23,511 nucleotides of DNA from a virus, in IMG/VR virus record IMGVR_UViG_3300025646_000381, positions 1-23,511 of that record; one strand, written 5' to 3'. The notes beneath the pieces were generated by a model. The model had not been told where the DNA came from. It searched no databases and worked only from the letters and a program-made list of their open reading frames with translations. Positions 3,083-22,563 of the stretch are shown in pieces. Every line of letters begins with the position of its first letter. Position 1 is the stretch's first letter. The position numbers and the translations under genes were made by a program.

Positions 3083-6000
3083 TTAAACTGTCCAATCTTT
3101 TAGTAATTTTGGGTCTGTAGTCCAAGTGTAATGCCATGGTTCATTTACAGACTTACCCTCGTACCAAGACCAATTATATTTGAATCCATTCTTTTTAACC
3201 CATGTTTGAGCTGCTTCCGGTCCAATATCTACAGCTTTACCCCAACCATGATTTGAAGTACCTGGCCAAGCCACAGCGACTTCACCATTAGAATCTACTT
3301 TCTTTCTCTTAGCACCTTTAGTTGGCTTTACATCGATTTCATTCTTAATGGTTGCCTCGTGAGTTGGATCACCACCAGTTCGTACATATAAACCCCAGTC
3401 CATTATGTCATATTGTGTCTTATATGTTCTATATGCAGATGATACTTCTATATTGATGCCTTCTGCCGCAGCATCATTGAACATTCTTATAAAGTCTTCA
3501 GCAGGCCCACCTTTTAATAATTTTCTAGTTCTTTTACTTCCAGGAATTACCATTAATTGATCATCAGAAAGCCTACCATTTTTACCTTTATTTCCTTGTG
3601 GGGGTGATTTAGGTAAAGGAGTTTGTTTGGATTGTGCTGATTTCACAATATTTGTTATCCATTGTCTCGTAGTTAGTGGTGGAGAAGCAGAAGTTGATGA
3701 AGTTGATTGAACTGAAGGAGTAGATTGTGCTGTTACTGCAACAGTTTTTACTACATTATCTCCTGATATTTTAGGAATGCCTAAAGTTTCTAATTTAGTT
3801 ACCCAACCATTACTATCAATAGTATGAGAAATTCCTTTAACTAAAAAATCTAAGTTATTTTGGTAACTTTGAGGAAGATATTCTTCATTGATTGTAAATT
3901 TTTCATATATCTTTACTCCACTTAAACCATCCATGGTTAAAGATAGATTAATAGGTATAAATCCTCTTCCATCATAGGACACTCCTGATGATTCTTCTTT
4001 CCCTAAAAGATAACTAAAATATTGATCAGATAATTCAGTATAATTATCAATTTCATCTTCTTTAACTATACCAATACCTCCATTAACTTGAATAAATAAA
4101 TCATCAATAAATTTATTAAATTTAATTAGATTTTCCCCAAATACTTCTTTAGGATCTCTAGTAGGAGAACTAGAAGGAGAGCCAGAACTTACATCATTAG
4201 AAAAATTATCAGATAAAATTAAAATTCTATTTTCACATCCTGCATTTAAATGAGAAAATCTTGAACCATTAACTCCAGTTTGGTTTGAATCTTGGGAATT
4301 GGCGGTAGCAGCTATAGTTAATTCATTGGCAATTTCTTTTGTAATTTCAGAAGAAATAGAAACATCTTTAACAAAACTACCAAAATTATCTTTTAAGGTA
4401 TTTACATTTATTTTATAAGGATTTTTGTTAATATCAGAAATTAAATTTTTTATACCAGGAATGTAAGTATTGTCTATAATTTTTAAAGTATTAGTTTCAG
4501 GATCACAAGTTACTTCAAAATCATTAACATTTCCTAAAGCTTTTTGGATACCCTTCATTAAAGAAGTTAAAAAATCATATAAAGAAAATTCATCATTTTG
4601 GTATGATTCATCAAAAATTTTTCTAATATAATTAAAATTAACTCTAATATGCATTAAATAACCAACATTCTTATATGATGCATCTCTAAAACCATCAATA
4701 TATTGATTAAGTTTTGTAATATTGTCATTTGTTGATGTTGGGGTTATGGAGGATTCTCCTATAATTTCCATATTTAAATTTTTACCTTTTGCACTCACTA
4801 ATAATGGTTTTGCTTTACTTACAACATATCCTGTATTTCCATAATTCTTAGGGTTACCTAAATAATCTACATATATTTTATCTCCATTTGTATCTAATTT
4901 ATAAAATCTAAATAGATAATTTACTCTTGTAGGATTTACAGGTATTAAACATACTCTAGGATCTATAGAAGTATGTTGGTCTAACGTAAAACAATAATTA
5001 CTGTCATAATCAGTAAATATCTTAAATACAGGATTTTTCTTTTTATCATAATATAATAGATAAGATTCAATAAATCTTAATAAAAAACCTAATGTAAAAT
5101 AATGATTTGTCCCAACATTTCCTGGTCCTTCAGTATCTATTTCATTAAAATCTAATCTAACATATTCATTTGGAGCTTTTTGAGAAGGATCAAGACGAAG
5201 AGAAATATTTTGTTTTCCAAAAAATCCCTTAAAATCATCACTAAGTATTTTAGGTTGAGTTACATAATTTGGTTCGTAGAAATATCGCGCAAACCAACTT
5301 TGATCTGCCTCAATTTTTTTTTCCCAAAAAAGGAAAAAAGCTTCTAAAGAATTTCTAGTCTTCTTTCCTCCTCCTATTTCAGGAGAAGCAGCATTTCTTA
5401 AAGAGAACTTTAGTGATTCAACTATTTCTCCTATTGAAATAAGAGATATTGTAATATCATAAGATCCATCTACATTTAAAGACCAATTAAAGTTTTTAAC
5501 ATAAGCCAAAATTCCATCATAATTTCCCTCAAAATTTTTTCGGTTTTTTTCAATTTCTGAATATATATCATCTTGGGTAGGGGTAGGAATGGATGGATTT
5601 TTTCCTAGAAAGGTCTGAGCTATAGTATATATATTTTTTTGTGTGGTTTTGTTTCTATCTAAATAAATAGAATGTCCCCATTCTAATAAAACAGGGTATT
5701 TAAGTTTCATAAATAAAGTATCAATTATATCAAATTGAAATTTATTAAAACATTTTATTTTAACTGATGCCTCTTTTAAAGAACCTCTATTCAAAGATTT
5801 AATTTCAGCACTTAATAAACCAGGCATAGGGGATAGGCCAAAATTTTTATTAGAAGCCAACCCATATGCTGTATCAGATAAAAAAGCATTATTATAATTA
5901 TTTAAAATACCTCCTTTTTTTCCATTTCCACTTTCAACACCTCCTCTTAAAATGAAATCACTAGCTAATTTATTATTTGCATAAGTTGCAGAAAGATTTA

Positions 6001-6190
6001 ATTCTGCAGCTTTTTCTTGAGTTATATTTACTCCTGAGGTTAGTTGAATCCATGCTGTTTTACTTGTATAATATTGTAAATCTGAAGGGTTTTGGTTAGA
6101 GTATTTACCTAAAACTTCTTGTCTAACTTCTATTTGTTTTCCCACCCAATCAGAAAATGATTCTCCTAGTAGATTATTAGTTTTGCCCAT
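3083..6190 (-). CDS. Baseplate hub protein with C-terminal M15 (VanY-type) peptidase domain
   Basis: This 1035-residue protein has two parts. Residues 1 to about 830 form a large baseplate hub region (it begins MGKTNNLLGESFSDWVGKQ and contains SKTAWIQLTSGVNI near residue 44), of the type found in marine T4-like phages at the gp27/gp5 position. A Ser/Thr/Pro/Gln linker (about 835-880) joins it to an M15 zinc D,D-/L,D-peptidase domain. That domain shows SAYRTYKTQ (Arg921), SNHGWGKAVDIG (zinc ligands His981 and Asp988) and EPWHYTW (catalytic Glu1017, zinc ligand His1020). All expected catalytic residues are present. The enzyme probably cuts peptidoglycan stem peptides locally as the tail penetrates, where T4 uses a gp5 lysozyme domain. 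The exact bond cut cannot be read from sequence. Confidence 0.85.
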   Translation of the reverse strand: MGKTNNLLGESFSDWVGKQIEVRQEVLGKYSNQNPSDLQYYTSKTAWIQLTSGVNITQEKAAELNLSATYANNKLASDFILRGGVESGNGKKGGILNNYNNAFLSDTAYGLASNKNFGLSPMPGLLSAEIKSLNRGSLKEASVKIKCFNKFQFDIIDTLFMKLKYPVLLEWGHSIYLDRNKTTQKNIYTIAQTFLGKNPSIPTPTQDDIYSEIEKNRKNFEGNYDGILAYVKNFNWSLNVDGSYDITISLISIGEIVESLKFSLRNAASPEIGGGKKTRNSLEAFFLFWEKKIEADQSWFARYFYEPNYVTQPKILSDDFKGFFGKQNISLRLDPSQKAPNEYVRLDFNEIDTEGPGNVGTNHYFTLGFLLRFIESYLLYYDKKKNPVFKIFTDYDSNYCFTLDQHTSIDPRVCLIPVNPTRVNYLFRFYKLDTNGDKIYVDYLGNPKNYGNTGYVVSKAKPLLVSAKGKNLNMEIIGESSITPTSTNDNITKLNQYIDGFRDASYKNVGYLMHIRVNFNYIRKIFDESYQNDEFSLYDFLTSLMKGIQKALGNVNDFEVTCDPETNTLKIIDNTYIPGIKNLISDINKNPYKINVNTLKDNFGSFVKDVSISSEITKEIANELTIAATANSQDSNQTGVNGSRFSHLNAGCENRILILSDNFSNDVSSGSPSSSPTRDPKEVFGENLIKFNKFIDDLFIQVNGGIGIVKEDEIDNYTELSDQYFSYLLGKEESSGVSYDGRGFIPINLSLTMDGLSGVKIYEKFTINEEYLPQSYQNNLDFLVKGISHTIDSNGWVTKLETLGIPKISGDNVVKTVAVTAQSTPSVQSTSSTSASPPLTTRQWITNIVKSAQSKQTPLPKSPPQGNKGKNGRLSDDQLMVIPGSKRTRKLLKGGPAEDFIRMFNDAAAEGINIEVSSAYRTYKTQYDIMDWGLYVRTGGDPTHEATIKNEIDVKPTKGAKRKKVDSNGEVAVAWPGTSNHGWGKAVDIGPEAAQTWVKKNGFKYNWSWYEGKSVNEPWHYTWTTDPKLLKDWTV

Positions 6191-18433: not shown

Positions 18434-19099
18434 TTATTCATAACCTTTTAATAATTCAAATATTTCATTTAATGCCTCATGTCTATGATTTTCTCGTAAA
18501 ATAATTTTATTTACAAACTGAGATTTTTCTAATTTTGCAACTTCATGAATTGCTGAGTCATTTTTGTATTTTAAGTCAATTTGTTGGCTATCTCCTGTAA
18601 AAATCATAAATGAATCTTTACCTAATCTTCCTAAACACATTTGTAATTGTTGTTTAGTTAAATTTTGGAACTCATCTATAATACAAATAGCATTTTCAAA
18701 TGTTCTACCTCTAAAGTGAGTCAATGAAACTAATTCAATATTTTCCTCACTTTCCATTTTATTTAAAATATCAGGTTTATTATACACTTTTCGCATATTT
18801 GATCTGATAGGGACTAACCATGGTTCTAATTTCTCTTCTAATGAACCTGGTAAAAATCCATTATCTTCATTGGAAACTGTTGGGCGTGTTATAACAATTT
18901 TATTGATTTGTCTTTTAAAGAACATATCAAGCGCAACTTGTACTGAAAGTAATGTTTTTCCTGATCCTGCCTTTCCTATTACAAAACTAAAAGGTTTTTG
19001 ATATATTAATTCTTTAGCTTGTTTTTGCTCTTCATTCAAAGAAATAGAAAATCTAATATCACCTTTGGGTGGAATCTTTTCAATATTTGATTTAGCCAT
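18434..19099 (-). CDS. phoH: PhoH-like ATPase (221 aa)
   Basis: This PhoH-family P-loop ATPase shows Walker A GKAGSGKT (42-49), the family-typical segments ITRPTVSNEDNGFLPGSLEE (70-89) and FRGRTFENA (129-137), Walker B CIIDEFQN (139-146) and TGDSQQIDL (168-176). All ATP-binding residues expected for the family are present, and the length is usual. PhoH-like proteins are frequent in marine phages; RNA-related ATPase or helicase roles have been proposed but the phage function is not settled. The gene follows the terminator at 19124-19148 and an ATATTTAT motif 15 bases before its ATG, so it opens the unit running through the neck, sheath and tube genes. Confidence 0.93.
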   Translation of the reverse strand: MAKSNIEKIPPKGDIRFSISLNEEQKQAKELIYQKPFSFVIGKAGSGKTLLSVQVALDMFFKRQINKIVITRPTVSNEDNGFLPGSLEEKLEPWLVPIRSNMRKVYNKPDILNKMESEENIELVSLTHFRGRTFENAICIIDEFQNLTKQQLQMCLGRLGKDSFMIFTGDSQQIDLKYKNDSAIHEVAKLEKSQFVNKIILRENHRHEALNEIFELLKGYE

Positions 19100-19114: not shown

Positions 19115-19122
19115 ATAAATAT
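19115..19122 (-). promoter_or_regulatory. ATATTTAT motif before phoH (candidate late promoter)
   Basis: Sense-strand ATATTTAT followed by AATAAATG, 15 bases before the phoH ATG and one base past the T-tract of the terminator at 19124-19148. Its position right after a terminator strongly suggests a new transcript start. Confidence 0.62.
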
Positions 19123-19123
19123 C

Positions 19124-19148
19124 AAAAAAGGCCCCAAATCTGGAGCCT
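19124..19148 (-). terminator. Rho-independent terminator after the phosphatidylserine decarboxylase gene
   Basis: On the minus strand AGGCTCC, a six-base loop and GGGGCCT form a 7-bp GC-rich stem with one T-G wobble, running into six T. It closes the two-gene enzyme cassette and isolates it from phoH. Confidence 0.87.
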
Positions 19149-19174
19149 CTTATTTTAACTTAAGAATTTTTTTA

Positions 19175-19894
19175 TTATTTGAAATTTATTCGAACCAGTT
19201 TATCTTTACCTGCCTCAACATGCATTTCATCATCTAATAATAATTCAAAATCAAATCTAGGATCTAAAGGAAGGACTAAGTCAACTTGAGAACCCCATCT
19301 AATTAAGCTAAATCTTTCATTTTGACACATAGGTTCTTTTTGTTCACTAACAAAATGAGCAATAACATTAACATCCTCATCTGCTATTTGAACCAAATCA
19401 TAAGTATAATCTAACTTAGTAGAATATATAGTATTTCTCATTCTTTCATTATATTTTAGATACTCCATATTGTTAGGGTTAATAGCCATATCTAAAATGT
19501 CTTTTTCCGTTGCTAACATTGGTCTATTCATAGATTCTATAGGATCCAATGGTTTATATGAAAGAACTCCAGCATAAGGTATACGGTTTATATGAACGTC
19601 ATAAAACGACATAAAAATACCAATTACCAAAGATGGTTTATTATATGTTTTATCTTGTAATACATCTTTTAAAGTATAATTAACTCCCTTAATTTCAACA
19701 ATAGGATCATCTGCATCTTCTACAAACTTTTGATATAAAATAGTACCATCCGCTGGGGAGTAGAAATGTTGGTAGTCAATATAATTTGGCCTAAGAGGGT
19801 CTCTGAAGAAAAATGTATTTGATAATTCACTTACAGATAGTTTTGATAACTCTTCTACATCTGTTTCTAGCCAGTCTTCTAATGTTTTAGCCAT
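19175..19894 (-). CDS. psd: Phosphatidylserine decarboxylase proenzyme (239 aa)
   Basis: This pyruvoyl-dependent enzyme would convert phosphatidylserine to phosphatidylethanolamine at the membrane. Family marks are in order: YSPADGTILY (45-54; Asp49 of the processing triad), IFMSFYDVHINRIPYAGVLS (93-112; His101) and FSLIRWGSQVDLVLP (195-209). Self-cleavage is expected between Gly201 and Ser202 to make a large beta chain and a 38-residue alpha chain with an N-terminal pyruvoyl group. A late segment, DDEMHVEAGKDKLVRI, matches the family end. There is no N-terminal membrane anchor, unlike many cellular enzymes. The start overlaps the stop of the DDAH-like gene by one base (TAATG), so the two are translated together. 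It is unexpected in a phage structural module. A substrate other than phosphatidylserine cannot be excluded. Confidence 0.87.
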   Translation of the reverse strand: MAKTLEDWLETDVEELSKLSVSELSNTFFFRDPLRPNYIDYQHFYSPADGTILYQKFVEDADDPIVEIKGVNYTLKDVLQDKTYNKPSLVIGIFMSFYDVHINRIPYAGVLSYKPLDPIESMNRPMLATEKDILDMAINPNNMEYLKYNERMRNTIYSTKLDYTYDLVQIADEDVNVIAHFVSEQKEPMCQNERFSLIRWGSQVDLVLPLDPRFDFELLLDDEMHVEAGKDKLVRINFK

Positions 19895-20808
19895 TATAAT
19901 AAGGTTTTATTTTGATCTACACGGTTCAAGTGGAAAATAAGGCAACTTAACATAGCACCTGATTTCATAAATTCTGATAAGTTAAAAATAACGGGTTCTA
20001 AGCCCTCATTAGCACAAATTTTTTCTAAAGTAAAGATTTTATTTCTTTCGGCTTCATAATCTTTATCTTTAATAGATAATTCAGAAATATTAGAAGCACA
20101 TAAAATCATATTTCCCATTCTTACTGAATTAGTTAAACCTCCAAAAGCATCATCTTCATTTATGTCTATAATTTCAGTATACTTTTCTATAAGCGCTAAC
20201 TCAGGTTTATCAAATAATTCCGTACAAATTAAAGTTTTGTTTTTAGTTAAAGGAAAAATAGAACAATCTAAATGATATAAATAATCTTCCATCATTTCCA
20301 CTTTAATAATTTCCATATCAAAGTTTTCTTCCATCCACTCATATGATTCATATTCAGAACGAATACCATATCCACCAATATAAACATTATCTTTTAAATA
20401 TTTAAGATCTGCTTCTCCTTCCCATTTATGGGGACACATATGAACATCATAATTCATCATTTGGAAAAACGATTTACCTACTTTTTCTTCTCCTTTTCTT
20501 GGGTCTGAGGTGAAGTTAGATAAAATAATATTGTTTGAGTCTTTAATATGAGGAAGATAAATCCCTAAATTAGCTACATAAACTTGATCTTGATATTCTC
20601 CATATGAAGGCATCAAATATACTAGAGAATCTCCTGACATAAAGTTATAGAGATCTAAGAATTGTCTATACGCTTTAGGTTTGTTAATTTTTAATTCTTC
20701 AGAAGACATTTCATTCATCCATACATTATTTGGATTTGAAGTATCTAGCGTAAATGGAAAATTCATTACATACGCAGGGATAGACAGTTGAGATGGGGTT
20801 TCTTTCAT
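19894..20808 (-). CDS. DDAH / amidinotransferase-superfamily enzyme (COG1834-like, 304 aa)
   Basis: The protein matches the guanidino-group-modifying fold of dimethylarginine dimethylaminohydrolases and amidinotransferases. Visible marks are VYVANLGIYLP (77-87; conserved Asn80), a NFTSDPRKGEE element (98-108), KWEGEADLKYL (128-138; the usual EGGD acidic site), GYGIRSEYES (146-155), YLYHLDCSIFPL (176-187; catalytic His179) and LSEFMKSGAMLSCLIFHL (277-294; nucleophile Cys289). Such enzymes attack the guanidinium carbon of arginine-like substrates through a Cys-linked amidino intermediate. The substrate cannot be told: hydrolysis of arginine or methylarginine, or amidino transfer, are all possible. 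The usual GG before the Cys is replaced by GAML. The gene lies between two terminators with psd and has its own candidate promoter. Confidence 0.83.
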   Translation of the reverse strand: MKETPSQLSIPAYVMNFPFTLDTSNPNNVWMNEMSSEELKINKPKAYRQFLDLYNFMSGDSLVYLMPSYGEYQDQVYVANLGIYLPHIKDSNNIILSNFTSDPRKGEEKVGKSFFQMMNYDVHMCPHKWEGEADLKYLKDNVYIGGYGIRSEYESYEWMEENFDMEIIKVEMMEDYLYHLDCSIFPLTKNKTLICTELFDKPELALIEKYTEIIDINEDDAFGGLTNSVRMGNMILCASNISELSIKDKDYEAERNKIFTLEKICANEGLEPVIFNLSEFMKSGAMLSCLIFHLNRVDQNKTLL

Positions 20809-20837
20809 TTTTACTTATTTACTTATTTTAAACAGCT

Positions 20838-20845
20838 ATAAATAT
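20838..20845 (-). promoter_or_regulatory. ATATTTAT motif before the DDAH-PSD cassette (candidate late promoter)
   Basis: Sense-strand ATATTTAT followed by AGCTGTTT, 29 bases before the ATG at 20808 and 20 bases past the capsid-gene terminator. It would give the enzyme cassette its own transcript with the same timing as the tail genes. Confidence 0.6.
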
Positions 20846-20865
20846 AATAAGAAATATTAGGAAAC

Positions 20866-20893
20866 AAAAAGAGCCTAGATTTCTCTAGGCTCT
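20866..20893 (-). terminator. Rho-independent terminator after the major capsid gene
   Basis: On the minus strand AGAGCCTAGA, a GAAA (GNRA) tetraloop and TCTAGGCTCT form a perfect 10-bp stem, with five T covering its last base and the tail. It lies 20 bases past the capsid stop. Confidence 0.93.
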
Positions 20894-20913: not shown

Positions 20914-22563
20914 TTAAAGAGTGTTCAATCCTGCTACGTAGATTTTACCGTAAAATTCTGGTCTTAACATCTTCTTAGCATAACGAGTTAAGAGACCTTT
21001 TCTTGGAGTGAAGGTATCTGGATCGTATACTAGAGGAGTCATGATCAATGGAATGTACGGAGCAAAGGCAGCACCAGCTTCAAGGTATTGAGTACCTTTT
21101 AGACCCATTAAGATTGTATTCTCAGTCATGTATGGGTTTTTGTAAACTTGGTATCTGCTATTAAGCTGACCTACTTTCTGAACACCAAATGCATAAGACA
21201 TCTCAGCTGCATCACCATTGCTAGTTGAAGCAAATCCTGGGATTGATTCAAGAATAGTTGCAATAGTTGGAGAACATACTAAGAAGTTAGCACCACCTCT
21301 AAGAGTTTTCTGGTGAATAATATTAGATACTTTTTGGATTTTAGTACCTAGAGTTTGGAACCACTGACCTTGTGAATTGTAGAATCCTAAATTAGTAGCA
21401 ACACCTGAAGAGTTTAGAGAAATATTGTTCTGAGCCGACCATTGTTCAGTTGTTAAAGCATCACCAATTAACATATCAAGGATTTCCAAGTCAATTTCCA
21501 TTGAAATGTATTCACTCATGATTGAAGTTAATTCAGCTTCAGCATCCAAGTTTTGGTAAGCATTAAGGTCTTGTGCAAACTCAGGAGTCCATACAGCCTT
21601 TAGCTTTTTAGTTTTAGCAACAATAGCCTCTGACTTAAGCTTAACGTTAATTTCTGGAATTTCAAATGTTCCTGTTGCATTATTAGCATTAAGACCAGTG
21701 TTATTATCTTCAAAGTCACCTCTGAATTGATCAGTTGGTTGAAGTTGGAATGAAGCAGTAACATTTGAATAAGAAGCTAATTCAGCGCCTAATGAGCCTG
21801 TTAAAACAAAGGTTACATTAGTTCCACTAACTTTAGTAAATGCTGGGAGGTTATTAGCTTCGTTGAAGTCTGAACCAGATGCAATTAAGAAACCTCTAGC
21901 TGCTTTTAAATCAGCATTTGTACCTGCAAAGTCAATAGTAAGAGTTTTATACTCATCTGCAGCGGCTGAAGCTGAGAAATTTGAGTCAAAGTTAAAATCA
22001 GCCCATGATGCGGTTGCTACTGTAGCATCAAGATAAGATGAGGTATTATTAGTAGAGTAAGTAAATCTACCTGCTCCATATAAACCATCAGTTGGATCAC
22101 CTGCAGCATCAGTTACACCATAGGTAGAACCATTACCAAATACATCACCACCTACGTTAAATGGAGTGTTAACACCACTTATAGCTTTAGAAGTGCCATA
22201 TTGATAATCAAGGAAGAATACAAGACCTGAAGGAAGAGACATTGGTTGAACTGAAACGAAGTCTTTTGCTGCGATTTGACCAAATACCTTTCTTACAAGT
22301 GGAAGAGCTACACCAGCCCATTGCTCACCTGTTCCTGCTGTAAAACTACCTACAGATGAAGTACCACCACCAGTTTGTGATGATTCTACTACTAATTGTT
22401 TTGCTTGGTTTTCAAGCATAAGGGCCATGTTTGATTTATCATGTTTTGATAGGCCCTCTAAAAGTCCTGTTCTTTCCCATTTTTTAGCAAGTCTAACTGC
22501 ATCAGACTGTACATTTTTCCATTGGGCAGAACTCTCTAAAAGAGTTTGTAATTGATTTGCCAT
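20914..22563 (-). CDS. Major capsid protein (gp23-like)
   Basis: This 549-residue protein is close to T4 gp23 in length (521). The N-terminus is a helical prohead-type segment (LLESSAQWKNVQSD, later KKWERTGLLEGLS), followed by MALMLENQAKQLVVE at 46-60. The conserved capsid core follows: FTAGTGEQWAGVALPLVRKV (74-93), FGQIAAKDFVSVQPMSLPSG (94-113), VFFLDYQYGTS, then KAVWTPEFAQDLNAYQNLDA and the AKKMLRPEFYGKIYVAGL end. Residues about 125-300 are a Gly/Ser/Thr/Asn-rich insertion. By analogy with gp23, the prohead protease may cut near Glu60; this is inferred. The gene is visibly less AT-rich than its neighbours, consistent with very high expression. It follows the core protein after 18 bases and ends in a strong terminator. 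Confidence 0.95.
   Translation of the reverse strand: MANQLQTLLESSAQWKNVQSDAVRLAKKWERTGLLEGLSKHDKSNMALMLENQAKQLVVESSQTGGGTSSVGSFTAGTGEQWAGVALPLVRKVFGQIAAKDFVSVQPMSLPSGLVFFLDYQYGTSKAISGVNTPFNVGGDVFGNGSTYGVTDAAGDPTDGLYGAGRFTYSTNNTSSYLDATVATASWADFNFDSNFSASAAADEYKTLTIDFAGTNADLKAARGFLIASGSDFNEANNLPAFTKVSGTNVTFVLTGSLGAELASYSNVTASFQLQPTDQFRGDFEDNNTGLNANNATGTFEIPEINVKLKSEAIVAKTKKLKAVWTPEFAQDLNAYQNLDAEAELTSIMSEYISMEIDLEILDMLIGDALTTEQWSAQNNISLNSSGVATNLGFYNSQGQWFQTLGTKIQKVSNIIHQKTLRGGANFLVCSPTIATILESIPGFASTSNGDAAEMSYAFGVQKVGQLNSRYQVYKNPYMTENTILMGLKGTQYLEAGAAFAPYIPLIMTPLVYDPDTFTPRKGLLTRYAKKMLRPEFYGKIYVAGLNTL

Follow-up and report, generated by a model that had tools for sequence, protein, structure and literature searches.

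A guanidino hydrolase and a phosphatidylserine decarboxylase-fold enzyme form a paired gene cassette in T4-like phages that may make an arginine-derived amine

Two groups of well-described enzymes and one class of viral pathways lie closest to the locus considered here. The arginine dihydrolase reaction, represented by ArgZ (Sll1336) and the N-terminal domain of AgrE (Alr4995), frees two NH3 per arginine, and Asn71 of these enzymes is tied to dihydrolase rather than deiminase catalysis; PDB entry 6juz is titled as ArgZ(N71S) covalently bound to an intermediate. The phosphatidylserine decarboxylase (PSD) of E. coli, in turn, requires acyl chains, one of which is contacted by Thr204, and is inactive on serine and phosphoserine (PMC7952604). 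According to their entry titles, the Aspergillus oryzae arginine decarboxylase (9jer, 9jf5) and PsiD use the PSD fold on free amino acids. Finally, some viruses encode polyamine pathways in which putrescine is supplied from arginine or ornithine; the pyruvoyl-dependent decarboxylases of these pathways derive from AdoMetDC/SpeD, and their arginine step is an arginase, present in giant viruses and not detected in phage (PMC9992855). In other words, polyamine genes in viruses and amino-acid decarboxylases of PSD fold in fungi both have precedents.

We analyzed a 23,511-nucleotide stretch of viral DNA (IMG/VR record IMGVR_UViG_3300025646_000381; hereafter the window) that carries two adjoining genes on its minus strand. 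Gene A (19894..20808, minus strand) encodes a 304-aa arginine-dihydrolase-like guanidino hydrolase of PHROG 12759, and gene B (19175..19894, minus strand) a 239-aa putative pyruvoyl-type decarboxylase of PSD fold, of PHROG 12670; neither PHROG family has an assigned function. As a preliminary description of this DNA had stated, the pair lies between the major capsid gene gp23 (20914..22563, minus strand; PF07068, E 4e-75) and a gene for a PhoH-like protein (phoH; 18434..19099, minus strand; PF02562, E 5e-50), and the two reading frames share a TAATG stop/start overlap (19892..19896, minus strand; read from the sequence), through which we infer that A and B are translationally coupled. The catalytic residues named in that description are likewise all found at the positions given. 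Both genes are under purifying selection, with dN/dS of 0.07-0.17 for A and 0.06-0.09 for B. Elsewhere in the window, the C-terminus of a 1035-aa tail-region protein (3083-6190) resembles, by eye, a D-Ala-D-Ala carboxypeptidase/VanY-type peptidase (HGWGKAVDIG).

Searched against Pfam, the A protein has no match at E values up to 1, and its best curated matches are arginine dihydrolase and ArgZ. Among NCBIfam models, arginine dihydrolase (1e-26) scores ahead of DDAH (9e-21), with both well under their cut-offs (93.6 of 450 bits for the arginine dihydrolase equivalog NF052232, and 74.2 of 300 bits for the curated DDAH model); because the NF052232 cut-off is missed, we name A arginine-dihydrolase-like only. 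An A-family profile run against PDB sequences retrieves ArgZ/AgrE (1e-22 to 1e-26) and nothing else significant. Structural comparison agrees: the AlphaFold2 model of A (pLDDT 93) superimposes on ArgZ over 264 of 273 residues at 1.8 Å with Z 34.7 (range for ArgZ/AgrE, 34.5-34.7), a better fit than to every other pentein class, namely AstB (27.8), DDAH (27.3), arginine deiminase (<=26), amidinotransferases (<=24.6) and, lowest of all, agmatine deiminases (<=20.9). The label "DDAH-like" used in the preliminary description is therefore superseded by a likeness to ArgZ/AgrE. We also set aside the amidinotransferase annotation given to the Campylobacter phage homologs, given the empty Pfam search and the lower structural fit.

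The residues needed for this chemistry are also retained. By alignment, and by motif for the last two, Asn22, Asn71, Glu118, Asp122, Arg139, His168 and Cys264 of ArgZ/AgrE correspond to N28, N80, E130, D134, R150, H179 and C289 of A (the C289 codon lies at 19942-19944, minus strand). C289, H179, E130, D134 and N80 are present in the window protein and in all phage rows; family-wide, N80 and C289 are near-invariant, position 134 is Asp or Glu, and N80 and R150 (the Arg of GYGxRS) are kept in nearly all members. The retention of N80 speaks for dihydrolase over deiminase chemistry, and the reaction suggested by sequence and model is the conversion of arginine to ornithine, two NH3 and CO2. Unlike ArgZ/AgrE, with which it shares 27% identity, A lacks an ornithine cyclodeaminase domain and has a decarboxylase gene next to it. 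In Streptoalloteichus, the A homologs (L181:7947-8900 and L183:7947-8918) have Ser for the catalytic Cys and no NNxWM motif, with an intact B alongside; this A is possibly a pseudoenzyme partner of B. In that genus, A may serve an additional purpose outside catalysis, or the ornithine for B may come from another source.

The B protein matches PF02666 (PS_Dcarbxylase) above the cut-off (3e-22). The predicted self-cleavage site Gly201-Ser202 (Ser codon 19289-19291, minus strand), H101 (equivalent to His144 in E. coli PSD) and D49 are conserved in all phage rows, G201-S202 and H101 being invariant, and the closest solved folds to the B model are E. coli PSD, at a moderate level of match (Z ~10.8, 4.3 Å). 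B thus shares with E. coli Psd and other short-type PSDs the fold, the Gly-Ser pyruvoyl site and the catalytic His, and to that extent its earlier identification as a phosphatidylserine decarboxylase stands. The function implied by that name is not supported: B misses every cut-off of the NCBIfam PSD equivalogs (best, 73 of 183 bits), its members form a separate clade (support 99/97) that a long branch sets apart from PSDs, and no membrane anchor is found at its N-terminus by a hydropathy test or by alignment to canonical short PSDs (the most hydrophobic N-terminal stretch of 19 residues scores -0.72 to 0.53 in B members versus 1.1-1.6 in canonical short PSDs), although B may contact the membrane through an amphipathic surface. 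An acidic D172-x-D174 stands where short PSDs have G-x-x-A-R-R and adjoins the position of E. coli PSD Thr204; the position of Tyr137, which binds phosphate in E. coli PSD, is uninformative, as canonical short PSDs differ there too. Further structural neighbors of B are the A. oryzae arginine decarboxylase (9jf5) and the Trp decarboxylase PsiD, which are structurally no nearer to it than E. coli PSD is. These fungal enzymes are much larger than B and share 13-15% identity with it over the structural alignment. We know of no fungal PSD-fold amino-acid decarboxylase that is paired with an arginine dihydrolase.

The substrate class of B is illuminated by genomes in which another enzyme takes its place. 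At all five cyanobacterial A loci, B is absent and a different decarboxylase adjoins A on the same strand, ~70-180 nt before or after it: a PLP fold-III Orn/Arg/DAP-family enzyme (PF02784 with PF00278) at four, and a fold-I Orn/Lys/Arg decarboxylase (PF01276) at the fifth. Three unrelated families (B, PLP fold III and PLP fold I) hence occupy the decarboxylase slot beside A. The fold-III enzymes have G-x-TCDSxD near the C terminus, which we take to resemble the active-site motif of ornithine decarboxylase; ornithine is nonetheless not fixed as the substrate, because the PLP decarboxylases reach no curated equivalog cut-off and have diaminopimelate decarboxylase as their top-scoring model. In the three of these five genomes that were searched, no PSD was found, and every A-B genome searched has another PSD match in addition to B, clearly stronger than B in eight of nine (in the genome of L156, the PSD matches are fragments on contig ends); bacteria that carry B thus also carry a canonical PSD. 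This distribution of PSDs, together with the replacement of B by PLP decarboxylases, is our main ground for taking B to be an amino-acid decarboxylase and argues that its substrate is an amino acid rather than a lipid. Downstream of A and the PLP decarboxylase, some cyanobacteria have an agmatine-deiminase-like (PAD_porph) gene (L157:4404-5165, L158:10258-11262 and L159:9138-10121), followed by ABC transporter genes. At another locus, a condensation/PapA-type acyltransferase-like gene (L164:9414-10676) follows the PLP decarboxylase-A pair, and the product of that cluster may be acylated.

Beyond cyanobacteria, a genome scan found A homologs of ~50% identity in Xenorhabdus, Photorhabdus, actinobacteria, Thermoleophilaceae, an acidobacterium and others, most of them with B immediately upstream. 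The genes are rare: in one actinobacterial order, B is present in 3 of 349 genomes, and in cyanobacteria A is present in 3 of 293 genomes and in 1 of 244. Genes in high-GC contigs were called by a codon-position method. The divergence of the two proteins runs in parallel: over 17 lineages, A and B distances correlate with r = 0.92, a value reached in none of 5000 Mantel permutations. A MATE exporter lies downstream of the pair at six loci (L154, L155, L156, L161, L162 and L178), and an ABC exporter in Xenorhabdus, Photorhabdus and L160; beside the phage pair, there is no exporter. In Photorhabdus tasmaniensis, a DDE transposase (IS630-like; L171:1125-2159) interrupts B and leaves A and the ABC exporter intact. 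More distant A homologs without a neighboring decarboxylase occur in alphaproteobacteria (L173, L174, L176, L179, L180 and L182) and Myxococcales (L175, with two A copies), those of L173 and L174 following genes that by eye are adenylate-cyclase/TPR-like; these distant homologs may have a different function. Searches of plasmids gave distant matches only.

In phages the two genes travel together. Among IMG/VR loci with A or B, 142 of 148 contain both, usually 2 nt apart, and the six that show one gene all stop at a contig edge. Deposited phage genomes contain the pair in 39 Campylobacter records (a fortieth has an A fragment only) and six Bacteroides phages, and the only other A match there is in Xanthomonas phage phiXF1 (23%; annotated DDAH). 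The preliminary description did not recall the pair in T4-like phages, yet Campylobacter phage NCTC12673 and its relatives have both genes: the "aminidotransferase" and "phosphatidylserine decarboxylase" genes of Fletchervirus are A and B homologs (~40% identity), annotated separately and with no joint function proposed in the record. Unlike in the window, they lie 43 kb apart, in NCTC12673 with A near gp41 and gp45, and with groES next to B. That description had also held that either gene standing alone in unrelated places would speak against a functional link; the Fletchervirus genes are indeed separated, but still co-occur. A third context, beside peptide deformylase and in the order B-A, is seen at L067. 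The earlier proposal of a functional link between A and B finds strong support in their co-occurrence in four or more phage contexts, in the bacterial B-A operon and in the correlated divergence. In most of the nearest phoH relatives, gp23 adjoins phoH and A-B is absent (L209-L221 and L229-L285), for which reason we regard the pair as a movable insert at the gp23-phoH junction; some phages, L252 and L261 among them, have ~1.1 kb of other DNA in the slot. In one phage locus, a GIY-YIG homing-endonuclease-like ORF (L007:1904-2660) separates A from B.

Two leads from the Campylobacter phages were set aside. Guanine is 100% replaced in Campylobacter phage DNA; we put aside a tie between A-B and this replacement, since the pair is also found in phages with no known link to it. 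The annotators of NCTC12673 cite a bleomycin/tallysomycin record (AF210249) for B, and no recognizable peptide-synthetase cluster appears at the Streptoalloteichus hindustanus pair or at its second B, within the stretches read around each. That second B paralog (G009:C6:164548-165099, L203) sits at another locus, and its context is uninformative.

The transcriptional context of the cassette is consistent with late expression. A promoter-like element, ATATTTAT (20838..20845, minus strand), stands 30 nt upstream of A. Of its 10 coding-strand copies in the window, eight precede a start codon by no more than 45 nt (binomial P ~8e-10; minus-strand sites at 20838, 19115, 18422, 15371, 13343, 12767, 11709 and 8856), and the genes so preceded include, besides A, phoH and several structural or tail-block genes. 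Among 87 distinct relatives, 43 also have it upstream of A, where 2.7 would be expected. The candidate promoter noted earlier therefore holds up by position and in relatives, though not by raw count, which in the window shows no excess over chance; we consider that ATATTTAT probably serves this phage group as a late promoter element. On the gp23 side, a hairpin with a T-run (20870..20893, minus strand) would end gp23 transcripts upstream of the cassette; it comes from a structure scan that reported the plus strand, with the minus-strand T-run taken from the sequence, and it is kept in 77 of 88 relatives and in none of the shuffles. A second hairpin with a T-run, found by the hairpin scan, follows B (19126..19151, minus strand). 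Of the terminators said to isolate the cassette on each side, the first is thus present and conserved, whereas the second, present in the window, recurs in 1 of 87 relatives when a perfect stem is strictly required, so that isolation on the phoH side is not general and transcripts may read through from the cassette into phoH in relatives. From the placement of promoter and terminators, the cassette looks like its own late transcription unit in this window.

Taken together, we favor, with moderate confidence, a two-enzyme amine-synthesis operon expressed late, leading from arginine to ornithine (A) and on to putrescine (B); its substrates, product and role are what we infer, while fold, residues, pairing, promoter context, conservation and the PLP replacement of B were computed here. 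Under this proposal, A would convert host L-arginine and 2 H2O to L-ornithine, CO2 and 2 NH3 via a Cys289 thiouronium intermediate. B, a soluble PSD-fold enzyme, would cut itself at Gly201-Ser202 to generate its pyruvoyl group and would then decarboxylate the basic amino acid provided by A, most likely ornithine to putrescine and CO2. The cassette would be transcribed alongside the late structural genes, and putrescine, directly or after host spermidine/homospermidine synthesis, would neutralize the packaged DNA and aid late translation. In T4 heads, putrescine and spermidine neutralize part of the DNA charge, and such a role fits late expression beside the capsid gene. A search of 11 related phage records, several of which are incomplete, turned up neither spermidine synthase nor SpeD, and any later polyamine steps would thus be the host's. 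We find it slightly more plausible than the contrary that B represents a new bacterial and phage class of pyruvoyl amino-acid decarboxylase arising from the PSD fold, forming with A an undescribed route from arginine to putrescine (or to a new amine), a module of T4-like phages and scattered bacteria that has been misannotated as lipid metabolism. The literature searched contains no report of the A-B pair as a pathway, nothing joining pyruvoyl, ODC and PSD, and nothing on Campylobacter phage PSD; the described virus-encoded polyamine pathways resemble the proposed one in supplying putrescine, and their account mentions neither PSD homologs nor dihydrolases (PMC9992855).

Another arginine-derived amine is a possible product, and the strongest competing explanation, which we hold tentatively to be the less probable one, is that the pair makes such a compound: for instance an amine with a guanidino or carbamoyl group, or the product that arises when B first turns arginine into agmatine and A then opens it, the compound being exported in bacteria and kept inside the cell in phages. 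The MATE and ABC exporters that follow the pair in many bacteria and the agmatine-deiminase-like genes of some cyanobacteria suggest a secreted product that is not necessarily putrescine, and the condensation-domain protein of one cyanobacterial cluster, a sporadic distribution like that of accessory metabolites and the existence of a PSD-fold arginine decarboxylase all point in the same direction. Against it, the phage pair has no exporter alongside, agmatine deiminases are the weakest pentein fit to A, and R150, equivalent to a carboxylate-binding Arg, is kept, which favors an amino acid over agmatine as the substrate of A. Much less probable is that the cassette serves chiefly to remove arginine, whether for nitrogen release, for pH or to block an arginine-dependent host response, with B merely pulling the reaction forward. 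The two NH3 released per arginine and the late expression suggested by the promoter context would suit such a role, but it fails to account for the persistence of a decarboxylase next to A in phages, in bacteria and, through three unrelated enzyme families, in other lineages. The earlier suggestion that an arginine-derived nutrient or signal is depleted comes nearer to our reading, in which arginine is the starting point and amine synthesis replaces mere depletion. Least probable of all is the lipid-headgroup remodeling late in infection first proposed for this locus, with B a true phosphatidylserine decarboxylase, which the Pfam match, the conserved Gly-Ser and His, the E. coli PSD-like fold and the listing of psd among marine virus genes (PMC11360552) would favor, and which is opposed by the missing anchor, the separate clade, the failed PSD cut-offs, the extra canonical PSD of A-B bacteria, the lack of PSD in the three searched cyanobacteria, the PLP amino-acid decarboxylases in place of B, and the acyl-chain requirement of E. 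coli PSD with its inactivity on serine and phosphoserine (PMC7952604).

If the arginine-to-amine proposal is true, the phage labels "phosphatidylserine decarboxylase" and "amidinotransferase", including those in the well-studied Campylobacter phages, would refer to amine synthesis and not to lipids, and inventories of viral metabolism in which psd is scored as a lipid gene would have to be corrected. A PSD-derived decarboxylase would join the independent origins of amino-acid decarboxylases, and the cassette would offer a direct test of the old idea that large phages control polyamines for DNA packaging.
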